Source: an uncultured Prevotella sp. (GTDB lineage: Bacteria; Bacteroidota; Bacteroidia; Bacteroidales; Bacteroidaceae). Taken from it: a DNA stretch of 64,000 nt. Each line of letters opens with the position of its first letter. Position 1 is the first letter of the stretch. Shown piece after piece: positions 1-50,900 of this stretch. The stretch spans positions 18,566 through 82,565 of the forward strand of contig CAMORS010000002.1 of NCBI GenBank assembly GCA_946624005.1, in the 5' to 3' direction. Below the pieces are notes generated by a model. The model was not told the origin of the DNA. It saw only the letters and a program-made list of their open reading frames with translations, and made no database searches. The translations under genes and the position numbers were made by a program.

Positions 1-30
1 TTGCTGTTTCTGTTTTTCTTTGTAATTTTG
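1..30 (+). promoter_or_regulatory. Bacteroidetes-type promoter for tamB (TTG 1-3, 19 nt, TAATTTTG 23-30)
   Basis: Matches the -33 TTG / -7 TAnnTTTG consensus with 19-nt spacing. Confidence 0.5.
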
Positions 31-36
31 CACCGT

Positions 37-3000
37 TTGAAAACACTTAAGCGAATCGTACAAGGAGTGCTCTGGACCATTGTCGGCCTGTATGCCTTCC
101 TATTCGTACTGCTGAAGATACCGGCAGTACAGGGGTGGATTGGCTCGCAGGCAGCACATGCCCTATCCGAAAAACTGGGCACGGAGGTGAGCGTCGGTAG
201 GGTGGAGATAGGACTGTTCAACCGTATCGTTGTCGACGATGTGCAGATGGACGATCAGTCGGGCAGGCAGATGCTTCAAGCCTCGCGCTTGTCGGCAAAG
301 GCCAATATCATCGACTTGCTGGAAGGGAAGGTCAACATCTCGTCGGTACAGCTCTTCGGCGTGCAGGCCAATCTCTATCAGCAAGATGCCCAGTCGAAAC
401 CTAACTTCCAGTTTGTGCTCGACTCGCTATCGTCGAAAGACAACCAGAAGAAGTCGGCGCTCGACCTGAGCATCCACTCGCTCATTATTCGTCATGGTGC
501 CGTGAAGTTCGACCGTCTTGACCTTCCACCCACTCACGGTCGTTTCAATACAGCCCATCTCGACATCGGCAACGTGAGTGCCCACATCGTGCTGCACCGG
601 CTGACCAACAGCTTGATCGATGCACAGGTGAAGAAGCTGACGATGAGCGAAGCTTCCGGCATCGACCTCAGGTCGCTGACCGGCCGTCTGAAAGCTGACA
701 GCACCGGAGCCGTGCTGACCGATTTCGAGCTTGCCCTGCCTCGCACCCGCCTGGCTGTCCAGCAGGCAGAGGCTCACTACCAATGGAAAGACGGTGCACC
801 CGATATGCGCACGATGACCTATCGGGCCAAGGTGAAGGATGCCAATATAATGCCATCGGAGCTGGCACCTTTTGTGCCTTCTGTCAAGTCGTTTGACAGA
901 CCTCTGGTTCTTTCAATGGAAGTCAATGGCAACCGCCATAAGCATCAAATATCCAACCTCTCGGTTTTGACGTACAATCAAGGCGTTGCGCTCAGGGCGC
1001 GACAAGTATGGCTCGACACCAGCGCAAAAAGTGCCACGATGGCGGCCGCCCGTTCGGCCGACTTGACTGTCAGCGAGAAAGCCCTTGCCGAGATAGCCGA
1101 CGATTTGTCGTCGGCCAAGATTCAGCTTCCTGAACAACTGCTCCGTTTGGGCAGTATCCACTGGCAGGGCGATGCAGACTATGGTCCTCATCGGCTGTCG
1201 GCCGACGGTATGCTGACGACCGATGCCGGCCGACTGAAATTGCAAGCTGAGACGCGCGACCAAGTATTCAACGGACAGGTGGAAGCCACAGAGGTGGACA
1301 TGGGCCGCGTGCTCGACAACGAGCTGTTTGGGATGCTCTCTGCACGTTTGACAGCACAAGGGTCATGGCCTTTAAAGGATGAACTGAGTATAAAAGGAAA
1401 CATTACTGATTTTGATGTCAAATCCTATCGTTTCAACAACTTATCGGTTGATGGAAGGTTGTTGAACAAAACGATGGAAGGGCATTTCAATTTAGACGAT
1501 CCGAATGCCCAGCTGGATTTCGACGGTACCATCGACCTCAGCGCACAAGAACCGGCCGTCGTCGCTCAGGCTACTGTTCGCCACTTCAATCCGAATGCCA
1601 TCGGGCTCACACAGCAATATCCCGACACCTTCTTCGAGGCCGACATGGAGGCCGACCTGAAAGGCTCTTCGCTGAACAATGCCAACGGCTCGTTGCTCAT
1701 CAGACAGTTCAGCATGGCAGGCCCCGACCATCACTACCAGCTCGACCGCTTGGTGGTAGATGCCACATCGGAGGGAGCAGACCGCTCGTTGGCCATCGAT
1801 AGCGACTTCGGACAGGTAGCCCTTCGTGGAAAGTACGACTATAGTACACTTTCGGAGAGCATCATCCACTTCCTCTCGCAAAAGCTGCCCATGCTGCCCG
1901 GTCTGCCAAAGGTGCAACCTTCGGGCAACAACAGCTTCGCCCTTCATGCCGACATCCGGCGGAGCGACTGGCTGCAGGCCTTCTTTGGCATTCCCCTCTC
2001 GATAGAAAAGCCTTTGATTGTGGATGGCACGATCAACGATAGCCAGAAGCAGATGTTCGCCGACCTTCTGGCTCCCAGCTTCTACTTTGACGGTGGTGCT
2101 TACCAGAATGTCGTCGCCCATGTCACTACCAACGACGAAGGACAACTTGAGACGCAGACAAGCCTCACCAAACTGATGGACAACGGCAGGAAGCTCGATG
2201 TGCAGGTGGAAGCGCAGGCAGGTAGCAACGAGATTGTTTCTGCTATCACATGGGACGATCACCAGCAGCGACCGATGAAGGGACGACTGCTCAGCACCAC
2301 CGAGTTGTTCCGTAACGAGCGAGGTGAGCAGACGGCTCACATTCGTGTGCACCCATCGGAAATACAGATGGGTGATACGGCATGGCAAGTTGAGCCATCG
2401 GACATACTTTACAGTAAGAACAACCTGGTGGTCGACTATTTTGCTGTAGCCCACAACCGGCAGCACATCATCGTGCAGGGAAAGGCCACCGAGCATCGCA
2501 GCGATTCGCTCGTCGTCGACCTGAGCGACGTCGATGTCAACTACATCACCAATATGGTCAACTTCCACGCTGTCGAGTTCGGCGGCAAGGTGAGCGGCAG
2601 AGCCTGTGTGCGGTCGGCCTTCCGGCAGCCCGATGCCTATGCCGACATCAGCGTCAGGCAGTTCACCTTCGAGGAGGGGCGCTTGGGGACACTCTTCGCC
2701 AAAGCACGATGGAACAGAGAAGAAAAACAGATAGACATCGACGCCCATGCCGACGAGCCGGAAGACTCGGGCTATGGACAAACGCTCGTCAATGGGTATA
2801 TCTCACCGTCGAAACACTTCATCGACCTCGCTATCCGTCCGCGCAGGGCACGGGCCGAGTTCTTAGAGAGTTTTTGCGGTAGCTTTATGGACAATGTAGC
2901 GGTGAGCGTAACGGGCGACCTCCGTCTGGCGGGCGACTTGAGTGAAATCAACCTGACGGGCGAGGCCGTTGCTGATGGTGAGCTCGATATCACCAGTCTC

Positions 3001-4515
3001 AACACCCACTACGTGCTACGCAACGATACCATCAGGCTCATTCCTAACGAGATTATCTTCCAAAACGATACCATCCGCGACATCCCCTCCTTTGGAGGGG
3101 CTAGGGGAGGTCTCGGCATCGTCAACGGTGCCCTGCACCACCAGGCTTTGACCAACCTGACCTACGACATTGATATCAAAGCGCAGAACCTGCTCTGCTA
3201 CGACTTCCACGACTACGGCGAGAGCACCTTCTTCGGAACAGTCTACGGCACGGGCGACTGTGCTATCCGCGGGCGGCGTGGGACGATAGACTTCGACATC
3301 AACGTTACGCCCGAAGAAGGTTCGTTCATCGAGTATAACGCTGCTTCGCCCGATGCCATCACCAACCGTGAGTTTATCACATGGCGGTCGAGGGGCGAGG
3401 ATTATTCGAGGTACGAGATTTCTTCGAGGTACGAGGTACGAGGTACGAGGTACGAGAATAGTTTGGTGGAAGGCGAAGACGGTAATCTCGTACCTCGTAC
3501 CTCGCACCTCGCACCTCGAGATAACGCTTCCGACCTGCGGCTGAACTTCCTCATCAATGCCACTCCCGACTGCACGCTGCGTGTGCTGATGGATCGCGAG
3601 AGTGGCGACTGCATCGCGCTGAACGGTACGGGTGCCATCCGTGCTACCTATTATAATAAAGGTTCGTTCGATATGTTTGGCAATTATCTCATCGACCACG
3701 GTTCGTACAAGCTCACCATCCAGAACCTGATGAAGAAGGAGTTCGCGTTCCAGCCTGGCAGCGCCATCGTCTTCGGAGGCGACCCCTATCTCGCAACACT
3801 CAATCTGAACGCTCTCTACACCGTCAACGGTGTGGCTCTCTCCGACTTGCAGATAGGCCGTAGCTTCTCGTCGAACAACGTTCGTGTCGACTGTCTGATG
3901 AACATCGGCGGAACACCGCAGCAGCCTCATGTAGAGTTCGACCTTGACATGCCTACCGTCAGTGCCGACGCCAAGCAGATGGTACGTCAGCTCATCAACA
4001 GCGAAGAAGAGATGAACCAGCAGGTCATCTACCTGCTCTCCATCGGACGTTTCTATACACAGAATGCCAACAATGCCGACGAGAACCAGAGTCAGACGTC
4101 GCTCGCCATGCAGTCGCTCTTGAGTGGTACCATCAGTCAGCAGATTAACAACGTGTTGGGCACCCTTGTCCACTCGTCCAACTGGAACTTCGGAGCCAAT
4201 ATCTCTACCGGCGACGAGGGTTGGAACAATGCCGAATACGAAGGATTGCTCTCCGGCCGACTGCTCAACAACCGACTCTTGATCAACGGACAGTTTGGCT
4301 ATCGTGATAATGCCAACGCCACCACATCGTTCATCGGCGACTTCGACGTGCGCTACCTCCTGCTGCCCAACGGCAATTTGGCCGTGAAGGTGTACAACCA
4401 GACCAACGACCGCTATTTCACCCGCAGCAGTCTCAACACACAGGGCATTGGCTTTGTGTTGAAGAAAGACTTCAATTCGTGGCGCGACCTGTTTGGTTGG
4501 AGAAAGAAGAAGTAG
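37..4515 (+). CDS. tamB: TamB/DUF490-like translocation and assembly module protein
   Basis: About 1500-aa ORF with an N-terminal TM anchor (RIVQGVLWTIVGLYAFLFVLLKIP), long beta-rich body and C-terminal DUF490-like end (ISTGDEGWNNAEYEGLLSGRLLNNRLLINGQFGYRDN). ORF is open to base 1; likely TTG start at 37 just after a TAATTTTG promoter box. Confidence 0.85.
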   Translation: MKTLKRIVQGVLWTIVGLYAFLFVLLKIPAVQGWIGSQAAHALSEKLGTEVSVGRVEIGLFNRIVVDDVQMDDQSGRQMLQASRLSAKANIIDLLEGKVNISSVQLFGVQANLYQQDAQSKPNFQFVLDSLSSKDNQKKSALDLSIHSLIIRHGAVKFDRLDLPPTHGRFNTAHLDIGNVSAHIVLHRLTNSLIDAQVKKLTMSEASGIDLRSLTGRLKADSTGAVLTDFELALPRTRLAVQQAEAHYQWKDGAPDMRTMTYRAKVKDANIMPSELAPFVPSVKSFDRPLVLSMEVNGNRHKHQISNLSVLTYNQGVALRARQVWLDTSAKSATMAAARSADLTVSEKALAEIADDLSSAKIQLPEQLLRLGSIHWQGDADYGPHRLSADGMLTTDAGRLKLQAETRDQVFNGQVEATEVDMGRVLDNELFGMLSARLTAQGSWPLKDELSIKGNITDFDVKSYRFNNLSVDGRLLNKTMEGHFNLDDPNAQLDFDGTIDLSAQEPAVVAQATVRHFNPNAIGLTQQYPDTFFEADMEADLKGSSLNNANGSLLIRQFSMAGPDHHYQLDRLVVDATSEGADRSLAIDSDFGQVALRGKYDYSTLSESIIHFLSQKLPMLPGLPKVQPSGNNSFALHADIRRSDWLQAFFGIPLSIEKPLIVDGTINDSQKQMFADLLAPSFYFDGGAYQNVVAHVTTNDEGQLETQTSLTKLMDNGRKLDVQVEAQAGSNEIVSAITWDDHQQRPMKGRLLSTTELFRNERGEQTAHIRVHPSEIQMGDTAWQVEPSDILYSKNNLVVDYFAVAHNRQHIIVQGKATEHRSDSLVVDLSDVDVNYITNMVNFHAVEFGGKVSGRACVRSAFRQPDAYADISVRQFTFEEGRLGTLFAKARWNREEKQIDIDAHADEPEDSGYGQTLVNGYISPSKHFIDLAIRPRRARAEFLESFCGSFMDNVAVSVTGDLRLAGDLSEINLTGEAVADGELDITSLNTHYVLRNDTIRLIPNEIIFQNDTIRDIPSFGGARGGLGIVNGALHHQALTNLTYDIDIKAQNLLCYDFHDYGESTFFGTVYGTGDCAIRGRRGTIDFDINVTPEEGSFIEYNAASPDAITNREFITWRSRGEDYSRYEISSRYEVRGTRYENSLVEGEDGNLVPRTSHLAPRDNASDLRLNFLINATPDCTLRVLMDRESGDCIALNGTGAIRATYYNKGSFDMFGNYLIDHGSYKLTIQNLMKKEFAFQPGSAIVFGGDPYLATLNLNALYTVNGVALSDLQIGRSFSSNNVRVDCLMNIGGTPQQPHVEFDLDMPTVSADAKQMVRQLINSEEEMNQQVIYLLSIGRFYTQNANNADENQSQTSLAMQSLLSGTISQQINNVLGTLVHSSNWNFGANISTGDEGWNNAEYEGLLSGRLLNNRLLINGQFGYRDNANATTSFIGDFDVRYLLLPNGNLAVKVYNQTNDRYFTRSSLNTQGIGFVLKKDFNSWRDLFGWRKKK
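3084..3110 (+). repeat. CCCCTCC-TTT-GGAGGGG-CTAGGGGAGG hairpin repeat inside tamB
   Basis: Perfect 7-bp stem; similar G/C-block hairpins are intergenic at 18241-18268 and 41100-41126. Confidence 0.6.
3388..3525 (+). repeat. GAGGTAC 7-mer inverted repeat element inserted in frame in tamB
   Basis: (GAGGTAC)n ... GAGAATAGT...GGTAATCTC ... (GTACCTC)n, ending CCTCGAGATAAC. Its reverse complement matches the intergenic element at 12099-12214. Confidence 0.85.
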
Positions 4516-11835: not shown

Positions 11836-12098
11836 ATCTGTAGCATGATGTGTTACAATGGAAAAATGTGATTAAACCGTTGACCTATAGTGAGTTATAC
11901 TCAATGTCTTAAATCTTGTAACACTTGTACACTTTAAATGCAATAAATTAAGGTTACATCAAGAAAATAAATATTTATAAGGTAAGAATAGAAAAGATGT
12001 GTAGCATCTGTATCTGTTACAAAAGAGCCTGGCCCACTGCTTTGAGCTGATGCCTTTCTTCATCGAGGGTGCGGGGGTGCGGGGGTGCGAGATTACTG

Positions 12099-12214
12099 TT
12101 ATCTCGAGGTGCGAGGTGCGAGGTACGAGGTACGAGATTACTGTCAGGCCCTTCAATACTATTCTCGCCCAACGTACCTCGTACCTCGTACCTCGAATAA
12201 TCCTCGCCTCTCGA
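12099..12214. repeat. Intergenic copy of the GAGGTAC inverted repeat element
   Basis: gttatctcgaggtgcgaggtgcgaggtacgaggtacgagatta...tattctcg...gtacctcgtacctcgtacctcgaataatcctcgcctctcga; reverse complement of the tamB insert with a shorter arm. Confidence 0.85.
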
Positions 12215-12331: not shown

Positions 12332-13735
12332 TTATTTCTTCTCAGCTTTCGGTGCGGCAGCCTTCTTGGGCTTCTCGGCACCCTTCTTTGGCTTCTCCGC
12401 AACCTTATCGAGCTTGGCCTTCAGCTTGTCTTCCTCTTTCTGCATCTTCTCCACCTTGGCCTGCAGACGGGTGATCTCCTTGTCCTTGCGCTCTATCTCG
12501 TCGCCCTGGTTCTTGATGGTGGTGAGGAGCGAGTTGAGTTCGTCGTTGTCAATCTCCTCGGGATAGAGGGCATTGACGCGGTTGATGAAGTCGCCGAGGA
12601 TGTTCATGTAGTTGGTGAAGGCGTCGAACGGACTGTCGTAGATGCCTCGGTCGAGACCGACGTTTGAGGGCTTCGTTGTCATGAAGCGGAAGTTGTTGGA
12701 AGCCTGCAGATAGTCCCAATCCTGGTTGATGCGCGGGTCGTTGGCGATGCGTACGCGGTCGGCGATGCCGTAGAGCTTCTGGAAAGCCTCGCGCTGCATG
12801 ACGTTACCGAGCCAGCAGCTGACGTCGCGCTCTTCGTCTACCCATGAGAGCGTGTCGGGCACGTGCAGCGCGTCGACGCTCTTGAGCTTGCTGAAGATCT
12901 CGGAGGGCAGCGAGAAGGTGATGCCTTCTTTCTCTGCCACAGCGGGGAGTGCCTTGACAAACTCGAGGATGTTTGACGAGAGCGGCTGTGCGATGCCGAG
13001 GGCGGAGAGCTCCATGAAGATGTTGAACACCTGCTCCTCTTGCGGTGCCTTGGCAATCTTCTGGATGTAGTTGTCGGCGAAGAGCGGATACTCGTCCCAT
13101 GTGGGGTCGTTGAAGCGCAGCGAGATGTCGTCGCTGAGGGTGACGTCGCGGAGCAGCAGCTTCAGCTTCGGAGCCATGGCGCAGTGGTAGAGGTAGTGAG
13201 GCGACTTCCATCCGAGTACGTGCTTGGCACCCTCGGTGAGCATGCCTTTGAATCCCATCAGTGAAGCCTGATGGCCGATGTCGTCGCTATAGATGAGTGA
13301 AGAGTTGCGCAGGACGGTGGGTCGTTTGCCGAAATACTCTTCCATCTTGTCGCACTGGCGCTTCACCTCGTCGGCGAAGCTCTCAGGCTTGATGAGCGAT
13401 GCCAGTCCGTGTGAATAGGGTTCGGCGAGAAATTCGACGCAGCCCGTCTTGTTGAGTTCCTGAAGCTTGGTGAGCACCTGCGGTGCATGCAGCTCGAGCT
13501 GCTCTACGCCGACGCCCGAAAGCGAGAAGGCCACCTTGAACTTTTTGCCAAACTGCTGGAACATCTGTTCAAAGGCTTCGAGGGCAGGCATGTAGGAACG
13601 TTCTACGATGTCGCTGATGGAGCGGTCGTTCTCGTAGTCGTCGTAATAGTAATGGTCGGTACCGATGTCGAAGAACCGGTAGCGCTTGAGATGCACAATC
13701 TGATGAATCTCAAAGTATAGGCATATTGTTTTCAT
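12332..13735 (-). CDS. Glycoside hydrolase family 57 (alpha-amylase type) with Lys/Glu-rich coiled-coil tail
   Basis: MKTICLYFEIHQIVHLKRYRFFDIG start, VEFLAEPYSHGLASL motif, C-terminal KAKLDKVAEKPKKGAEKPKK. Confidence 0.85.
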   Translation of the reverse strand: MKTICLYFEIHQIVHLKRYRFFDIGTDHYYYDDYENDRSISDIVERSYMPALEAFEQMFQQFGKKFKVAFSLSGVGVEQLELHAPQVLTKLQELNKTGCVEFLAEPYSHGLASLIKPESFADEVKRQCDKMEEYFGKRPTVLRNSSLIYSDDIGHQASLMGFKGMLTEGAKHVLGWKSPHYLYHCAMAPKLKLLLRDVTLSDDISLRFNDPTWDEYPLFADNYIQKIAKAPQEEQVFNIFMELSALGIAQPLSSNILEFVKALPAVAEKEGITFSLPSEIFSKLKSVDALHVPDTLSWVDEERDVSCWLGNVMQREAFQKLYGIADRVRIANDPRINQDWDYLQASNNFRFMTTKPSNVGLDRGIYDSPFDAFTNYMNILGDFINRVNALYPEEIDNDELNSLLTTIKNQGDEIERKDKEITRLQAKVEKMQKEEDKLKAKLDKVAEKPKKGAEKPKKAAAPKAEKK

Positions 13736-13837
13736 AATGAGGCCCCCCCTCTTATCCCCCCGAGGGGGGAAGACCATGCGGGGGCTTGGGTCTTTCGTTG
13801 TTTTTTTATTTCGTTATACCGTTTTGCGGGAAGAGGT

Positions 13838-37181: not shown

Positions 37182-37305
37182 GAACTTCTAAAATGAAGAA
37201 TGAAGAATGAAGAATTTTTAAAATGAAGAATGAAGAATGAAGAATTATGCATAATGCATTATGAACTATGAATTATGAACTATGAACTATGAACTATGAA
37301 CTATG
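37182..37305 (+). repeat. Heptamer array (ATGAAGA)n then (ACTATGA)n running into the next start codon
   Basis: ATGAAGA blocks interrupted twice by 9-mers (ACTTCTAAA, ATTTTTAAA), then ATTATGC ATAATGC ATTATGA ACTATGA ATTATGA ACTATGA x4. Confidence 0.9.
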
Positions 37306-38207
37306 AATTGTTCCGCACGCCTGTAGACATCGCGAAGCCACCCTTTGGCATCAAGCCAGGTCAGCACATCTTCTGTGTGGGTAGCTGTTTCGCGCAGAGC
37401 ATCGGCCAGCGTTTTGCCGATGCCCTCTTTCCTACGGCTGTCAACCCATGGGGCGTGATGTACAATCCGGTCAGCATTCTCCATACCATCCAACGAATTG
37501 GCAATGCATACTCCCTGCAGTCCGCTTCGGCTGTCGATTCTGCATCGTCAGCAGGCGAAGACATCGCTGCAGCTACGCCTCCTGACGTAGCCATCCTGAC
37601 GCTGGGCACCAACCATGTTTACCGACTGAAATCTTCCGGAGCTATTGTCGACAACTGCCAGAAGCGCCCCGCTAACCTCTTTCAGGAGGAATGCCTCAGC
37701 GTCGATCAATGTGTGGAGGCCCTATGCCAATGTGTCAGCATCCTGCAGCAACTCAATCCGGAGGTGAAGATCGTCCTCACGGTCAGCCCCATCCGTTATC
37801 AGAAATATGGTTTCCATGAGAGTCAGCTGTCAAAGGCAACATTGTTGCTGGCCGCCGACAAGGTGGTCGGGCTACAACAGAAAGTCGCCAAGGAAACCAC
37901 GAATGGCGGAACAGACAGCAGCATAGCCTATTTTCCTGCTTACGAACTGCTGAACGACGAGCTGCGCGACTATCGTTTCTATGCCAGCGATATGCTCCAT
38001 CCCTCCGAACAAGCCGTCGGCTATGTGTGGCAACGCTTTGTAGAGGCTTTCTTCACGACAGAAGCGTGTCAGTATCTCAAAGAATGGAACCCCATCCGTC
38101 AGGCGCTGGATCATCGGCCGTTCCATCCCGATGCGCCGGCGTATCAGCAGTTCATGGCGCTGACGCAGCAACGCCTTGATGCCTTTAAAGCGAAGTACAA
38201 CCTTTAG
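37296..38207 (+). CDS. GSCFA domain protein
   Basis: FRTPVDIAKPPFGIKPGQHIFCVGSCFAQSIGQRFADA with GSCFA motif. Confidence 0.9.
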   Translation: MNYELFRTPVDIAKPPFGIKPGQHIFCVGSCFAQSIGQRFADALFPTAVNPWGVMYNPVSILHTIQRIGNAYSLQSASAVDSASSAGEDIAAATPPDVAILTLGTNHVYRLKSSGAIVDNCQKRPANLFQEECLSVDQCVEALCQCVSILQQLNPEVKIVLTVSPIRYQKYGFHESQLSKATLLLAADKVVGLQQKVAKETTNGGTDSSIAYFPAYELLNDELRDYRFYASDMLHPSEQAVGYVWQRFVEAFFTTEACQYLKEWNPIRQALDHRPFHPDAPAYQQFMALTQQRLDAFKAKYNL

Positions 38208-50786: not shown

Positions 50787-50900
50787 GATGGTTGATGTTT
50801 GATGTACGATGGTACGATGTGTTCCTTCGGAAGTTTGATGTTTGATGTACGATGTACGATGTGTTCCTTTGGAAGTTTGATGTTTGAAGGTTGATGTACT
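50787..50900 (-). repeat. Heptamer array with 42-bp super-unit upstream of the glycosyltransferase start
   Basis: gtttgat gtttgat gtacgat gtacgat gtgttccttyggaa, about 2.5 copies. Confidence 0.85.

Follow-up and report, generated by a model that had tools for sequence, protein, structure and literature searches.

The 64,000-nucleotide stretch of DNA from an uncultured Prevotella sp. that was analyzed here (contig CAMORS010000002.1; hereafter, the window) carries a palindromic array of 7-bp units inside an open protein-coding gene, tamB. This raises the question of whether the repeat is a peculiarity of one gene or, as the initial annotation suggested, a mobile or copied repeat that enters genes and tolerates, or is selected for, open reading frames. 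The repeat belongs to a real family of in-frame, heptamer-built palindromic elements in Prevotella.

The tamB repeat, its copies, and the turnover of repeats in linkers

The host gene (positions 1 to 4515, plus strand) encodes the C-terminal part of TamB (Pfam ID PF04357; E value, 9.5e-50), a protein matched in 60 of 60 genus members; the 5' end of the gene may fall outside the window. The composite repeat (3388 to 3525, plus strand) is in frame, encodes the peptide SRGEDYSRYEISSRYEVRGTRYENSLVEGEDGNLVPRTSHLAPRDN, and has related copies elsewhere; the stretch of TamB at the host/element span reads YENSLVEGEDGNLVPR. Its sequence, coordinates, and peptide are as originally annotated. Two inverted arrays, each with four GAGGTRC heptamers, make up the element, which is open throughout and in frame with the gene. 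The left arm (3424 to 3460, plus strand) starts with TCGAGG, continues with four GAGGTAC heptamers, and ends with GAGAATA; the right arm (3483 to 3519, plus strand) starts with TAAT, followed by the inverted heptamers CTCGTACCTCGTACCTCGCACCTCGCACCTCGA. These 37-nt arms are 92% complementary and lie 22 nt apart; the inter-arm loop (3461 to 3482, plus strand), taken from AATAGT to GTAATCTC, measures 33 nt, which is divisible by 3. As a single strand, the element has a predicted fold of -39.5 kcal/mol (z = -8.2 against dinucleotide shuffles). Two sense and two antisense frames of this copy are stop-free. The heptamer itself, as had been pointed out, contains no stops in the frames used, and this is true of all six frames, but the argument drawn from it is weak because 51% of all heptamer classes are likewise stop-free; there is nothing special about this property.

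The copy counts given here are based on searches and on retrieved stretches of the genome and are lower bounds, since the family-rich genomes are incomplete draft assemblies; that of the window, a rumen-type Prevotella genome, comprises 2.64 Mb in 127 contigs and is 82% complete. The tamB element yields 90 BLAST pieces in this genome, and a 25-nt heptamer pattern gives 109 matches (51 + 58), grouping into about 30 sites, as opposed to zero matches for the reversed-pattern control. Thus, the expected further copies do exist. The one previously noted in an intergenic region (12099 to 12214, minus strand) is real, lies directly 3' of the gene at 12332 to 13777, and shows 83% identity to the tamB copy over 120 bp and 80% identity to the cobD copy over 181 bp. 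It belongs to a loop subfamily that is common to the copies in cobD and in a PG_1098-like gene and is adjoined by GGGGGTGC-type 8-mer repeats (12064 to 12098), a common 3' extension with a comparable stretch beside the cobD copy. The window also contains other heptamer arrays, of the AATGAAG, ATGAACT, and GTACGAT types, at 37220 to 37311 and 50833 to 50862.

Paired units are about 90 to 220 bp long, and copies in unrelated genes are alike over 110 to 245 bp, with 70 to 90% identity (e.g., 87% over 151 bp between the threonine aldolase and cobD copies and 89% over 153 bp between the cobD and PG_1098-like gene copies), which means that the repeat was copied. There are at least three loop subfamilies, each present at several unrelated genes, and the spread of the element is evident from this sharing. 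Of the earlier suggestion of a mobile or copied repeat, what stands is that it is dispersed, copied, and found in frame in many genes; mobility as such is indicated by the subfamilies and by the absence of the segment in relatives, no transposition having been seen.

In TamB, the segment occupies a variable linker, which is 48 aa long here and 26 to 40 aa long in 21 relatives, so that the clean insertion of about 46 aa predicted by the initial annotation was not borne out. The tamB repeat is thus an expansion or replacement of the linker rather than an interruption of a conserved stretch. In other species, the same linker carries other repeats, among them two other heptamer families: AATTCCT-type heptamers in genome G015, GTTGAAC/GTTCAAC in G075, and a GC-rich palindrome in G072. 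The G015 linker (L057) consists mostly of AATTCCT-type heptamers, and inspection by eye shows C replacing A at some of the units where TAA would be in frame, which looks like selection against stops. A similar turnover of repeats is seen in two cobalamin biosynthesis proteins of G006, where CobL has AAGAAGC heptamers and CbiD has an SHLSPLTS repeat in the loops that hold a GAGGTRC-type element in the window genome.

A second, unrelated GC-rich palindromic repeat, CCCCTCCTTTGGAGGGGCTAGGGGAG, is translated in tamB at 3084 to 3109 (plus strand), giving IPSFGGARGGL as opposed to RNGN in relatives, a net gain of 6 aa. L026, L018, and the CbiD loop of G050 contain palindromes of this kind as well. 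A further coding palindrome family, GCCCCC...CCCCCGAGGGGGC, is present in the second acyltransferase gene of the window genome (L010, 5156 to 6478, minus strand) and in the TamB linker of G072 (L059/L076).

The presence of different heptamer families in the same loop, depending on the species (the TamB linker of three species and the CobL and CbiD loops of G006), together with the tandem structure of the arrays, would fit local growth, whereby replication slippage builds the arrays within tolerant loops and gene conversion makes the loci alike. Heptameric simple sequence repeats are over-represented in bacteria, and slippage has been proposed as their source (PMC4692102). This explanation is nonetheless unlikely: unrelated genes share entire composite units of 110 to 245 bp, including their particular loops and flanks; arrays keep close to four units, with exactly four in 93 of the 139 arrays from four genomes and no slippage-like spread; and paired inverted arrays are not made by slippage. 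A further, tentative idea is that some process in Prevotella actively writes four-unit heptamer arrays into tolerant loops and swaps the heptamer family at the same loop over species time. If so, array writing would be a continuing in-frame supply of new protein segments.

Mobility and comparison with known repeat systems

Rather than growing in place, the repeat probably represents a dispersed, non-autonomous palindromic element that is copied within the genome and persists mainly in protein-coding genes. Its core is a loop with an inverted array of four 7-bp units on either side and ends like TTCGAGG...CCTCGAA, and we infer a route in which a host enzyme or recombination would move or template single-stranded hairpin DNA without duplicating the target. 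The target-site duplications that were to be looked for were not found: a word of at least 5 nt is common to both flanks in 3 of 32 copies, compared with 1.7 expected. Searches for a vector or a known identity produced only 3 matches among 2.9 million viral contigs, short matches in two unrelated plasmids, and a sole Rfam match, to a plant microRNA family hairpin, below the gathering score; a phage vector, a plasmid vector, and an Rfam identity were accordingly rejected. No reverse transcriptase (RVT_1) was detected in four family-carrying genomes, all of them incomplete assemblies.

A hairpin that leaves no target duplication is also what would be seen if these were atypical REPs moved by a Bacteroidetes Y1 transposase. 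In-frame insertions of REP elements in linkers of genes have been reported (PMC6006769), and the window genome does contain two RAYT-like Y1_Tnp genes (L039 and L040). However, both are bounded by GTAG-type repeats of their own, GTAGGAGGTCACGCTTCCCAGCGTGACACC and GTAGGGGCGGAACAGCGTTTCCGCCC, and not by heptamer elements. Nor does the presence of Y1 track the arrays: G072, which has the most copies (177 pattern matches), gave no Y1_Tnp match in a genome that is 62% complete, whereas G016 has three Y1_Tnp matches and no heptamer array in 100 kb. The element ends in TTCGAGG/CCTCGAA, with no GTAG/CGTC foot. Thus, while the element resembles REP/BIME systems in having palindromes, paired inverted units, and in-frame linker insertions, it differs from them in the missing foot, in its much longer arms, and in having no cognate RAYT that we could find, and we consider a RAYT-driven origin quite improbable.

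Heptameric repeats described in Xanthomonas and Nostoc prefer four units, include some inverted pairs, form G-quadruplexes, and are under-represented in coding regions (PMC4692102). The Prevotella element shares with them the 7-bp unit, the four-unit preference, and inverted pairing, but its copies are mostly coding. G-quadruplex formation was rejected as a general cause of the four-unit length because heptamer families lacking GG/CC tracts also peak at 3 to 5 units. The Prevotella element resembles MITEs, which are short, non-autonomous, flanked by terminal inverted repeats, and occasionally fused in frame with genes (PMC10969869), but it shows no target-site duplication.

The palindromic elements of Rickettsia and Wolbachia are palindromes of about 100 to 150 bp that are found in frame in many unrelated genes and encode a conserved peptide in parts of the protein exposed to solvent; of the first Rickettsia set, nearly half were located within ORFs (PMC10969869, PMC3767692). 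As with those, the Prevotella element is palindromic (units of about 90 to 220 bp; z = -8.2 for the tamB hairpin) and lies in frame at no fewer than 21 sites in unrelated genes. In contrast to those, it is made of 4 + 4 heptamers, and the array family differs between species at the same loop. On our best reading of this comparison, the element would work like Rickettsia palindromic elements, yet it is built of heptamers and resides in Bacteroidales; we do not class it as RPE, REP, or MITE, since the defining features of these classes are not all established here.

Host genes, orientation, and reading frame

As to how many copies are coding and how many intergenic, most are coding, with at least 21 of the approximately 30 sites inside genes supported by Pfam and homologues. 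The hosts are TamB, threonine aldolase, two acyltransferases (three sites), a GH10-like protein, an AraC/TPR regulator, CobJ-CbiC, CobD (two sites), CbiG-CobM, CbiJ-CbiD, CobL, a PG_1098-like methyltransferase (two sites), PGA_cap, FeoB, GH76, a flippase, a U32 peptidase, and a glycosyltransferase. Cobalamin biosynthesis genes recur among them (L012, L013, L015, and L016), with five genes affected and CobD twice. Relatives lack the segment. Compared with proteins of other species in the genus, there are clean insertions of 69 aa in threonine aldolase, 45 and 76 aa in acyltransferase, and 74 aa in the flippase, and the GH10-like protein has a clean insertion of 33 aa relative to four relatives. 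In threonine aldolase, the extra residues 189 to 257 fall between chain residues 193 and 197 of PDB entry 1svv.

Paired copies located in ORFs of at least 300 aa are sense to the longest ORF in 21 of 23 anchored cases. The threonine aldolase copy, one of the two exceptions by the longest-ORF rule, is in the sense orientation according to Pfam and PDB matches, and one further antisense copy is found in L071. The corrected ratio for such ORFs is 22 sense to 2 antisense (P = 3.6e-5 against 0.5), and sense copies are nearly all in one frame (YENS...NLVPRT), with one borderline exception (L079); this preferred frame reads ...YENS-loop-NLVPRTSHLAPR. All 23 copies situated in long ORFs have loops of 30 to 63 nt whose length is divisible by 3. 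Loops of 40 nt, which bring TAA into frame, occur in 5 of 8 copies outside long ORFs and in none inside (Fisher P = 3.3e-4). Both the orientation and the loop P values overstate independence, because the copies are related to one another, and serve as guides only. Loop lengths were normalized by hand by removing an extra heptamer or two where the match started early, and coding status was judged by ORF length for part of the sample. Sense orientation and a single frame are strongly preferred, and the loops are frame-constrained. The orientation bias may reflect selection on the peptide or strand-specific insertion. Hydropathy was rejected as the sole cause of the sense frame, as one antisense frame is equally hydrophilic (GRAVY, -1.37 versus -1.36).

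The very stable hairpin and the location of the element in essential enzymes invite the thought that the peptide is missing from the mature protein, owing to bypassing, splicing, or proteolysis. If the element were removed before translation, a single open frame, loops in multiples of 3, and the avoidance of 40-nt loops would be needless; these same features favor translation over skipping. This argument does not extend to proteolysis, but we regard removal in any form as very unlikely. Judging from the reading frames, the element is probably translated in the cell, and it presumably brings no benefit to the host. The surviving copies would be those in the sense orientation and in one frame, located in flexible linkers or surface loops, with selection acting as a filter, and 25 to 75 extra residues at such sites would not block folding of the host protein.

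Structure predictions covered CobL and TamB, and the placement of the element in other host proteins was judged from alignments. When CobL was modeled with AlphaFold2 (17 sequences; mean pLDDT, 82.5), residues 218 to 238, inside the element, had pLDDT below 50. The TamB model is weak overall (pLDDT, 52.2), and the element region (211 to 254 and 259 to 271, below 50) is among its least confident parts, situated between predicted strands. The translated repeat would form a floppy protein loop.

Distribution and significance

Elsewhere, the GAGGTRC family is found, among the matches listed, in Prevotella and Prevotellaceae genomes, many of them from rumen. Its hosts in other Prevotella species are DnaG (two species), KsgA (two copies), RsmF, an MFS transporter, and an M24 peptidase, so that DnaG, KsgA, and RsmF, essential or housekeeping proteins, are among the targets. 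The KsgA of G072 has about 50 extra aa near chain residues 79 to 81 of PDB entry 3tqs. The least credible explanation is that repeat-rich metagenome contigs were wrongly assembled or binned: the element-rich genomes are indeed incomplete and fragmented, but independent assemblies of different Prevotella species carry the family (with cattle, goat, and deer among the sources in the matches listed), host proteins remain in frame across the element, and other heptamer arrays are present in the 3-contig genome G010 and the single-contig genome G061. In unbiased samples, tandem arrays of at least four units are mostly of period 7, with some of periods 8 and 9; two complete genomes, each examined over 100 kb, had no period-7 arrays.

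A targeted search of the open-licence literature found no report of a GAGGTRC element in Prevotella, and no Rickettsiales record was among the matches listed for the paired family. Most known cases of translated palindromic elements come from Rickettsiales, in which they are easily explained by genome reduction and weak selection. A high-copy, probably translated family in Prevotella of the gut, which includes the essential genes dnaG and ksgA among its hosts and is constrained in orientation, frame, and loop, offers a comparative system, and the many Prevotella species, some with a heptamer of their own, make it possible to ask how repeats enter proteins and whether they become useful. For genome annotation, the RYEVRGTRYE and NLVPRTSHLAPR peptides in Prevotella proteins should be treated as repeat-derived sequences, not as domains.

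The 25-mer was also matched, among the records listed, in Billgrantia, Pseudoalteromonas, Imhoffiella, Streptomyces, and Planctomycetota (L194, L206, L220, L246, and others). In several of these unrelated phyla, the matches follow one another at a spacing of 28 bp, as would be expected of longer tandem arrays, and we provisionally take them to be separate heptamer microsatellites.
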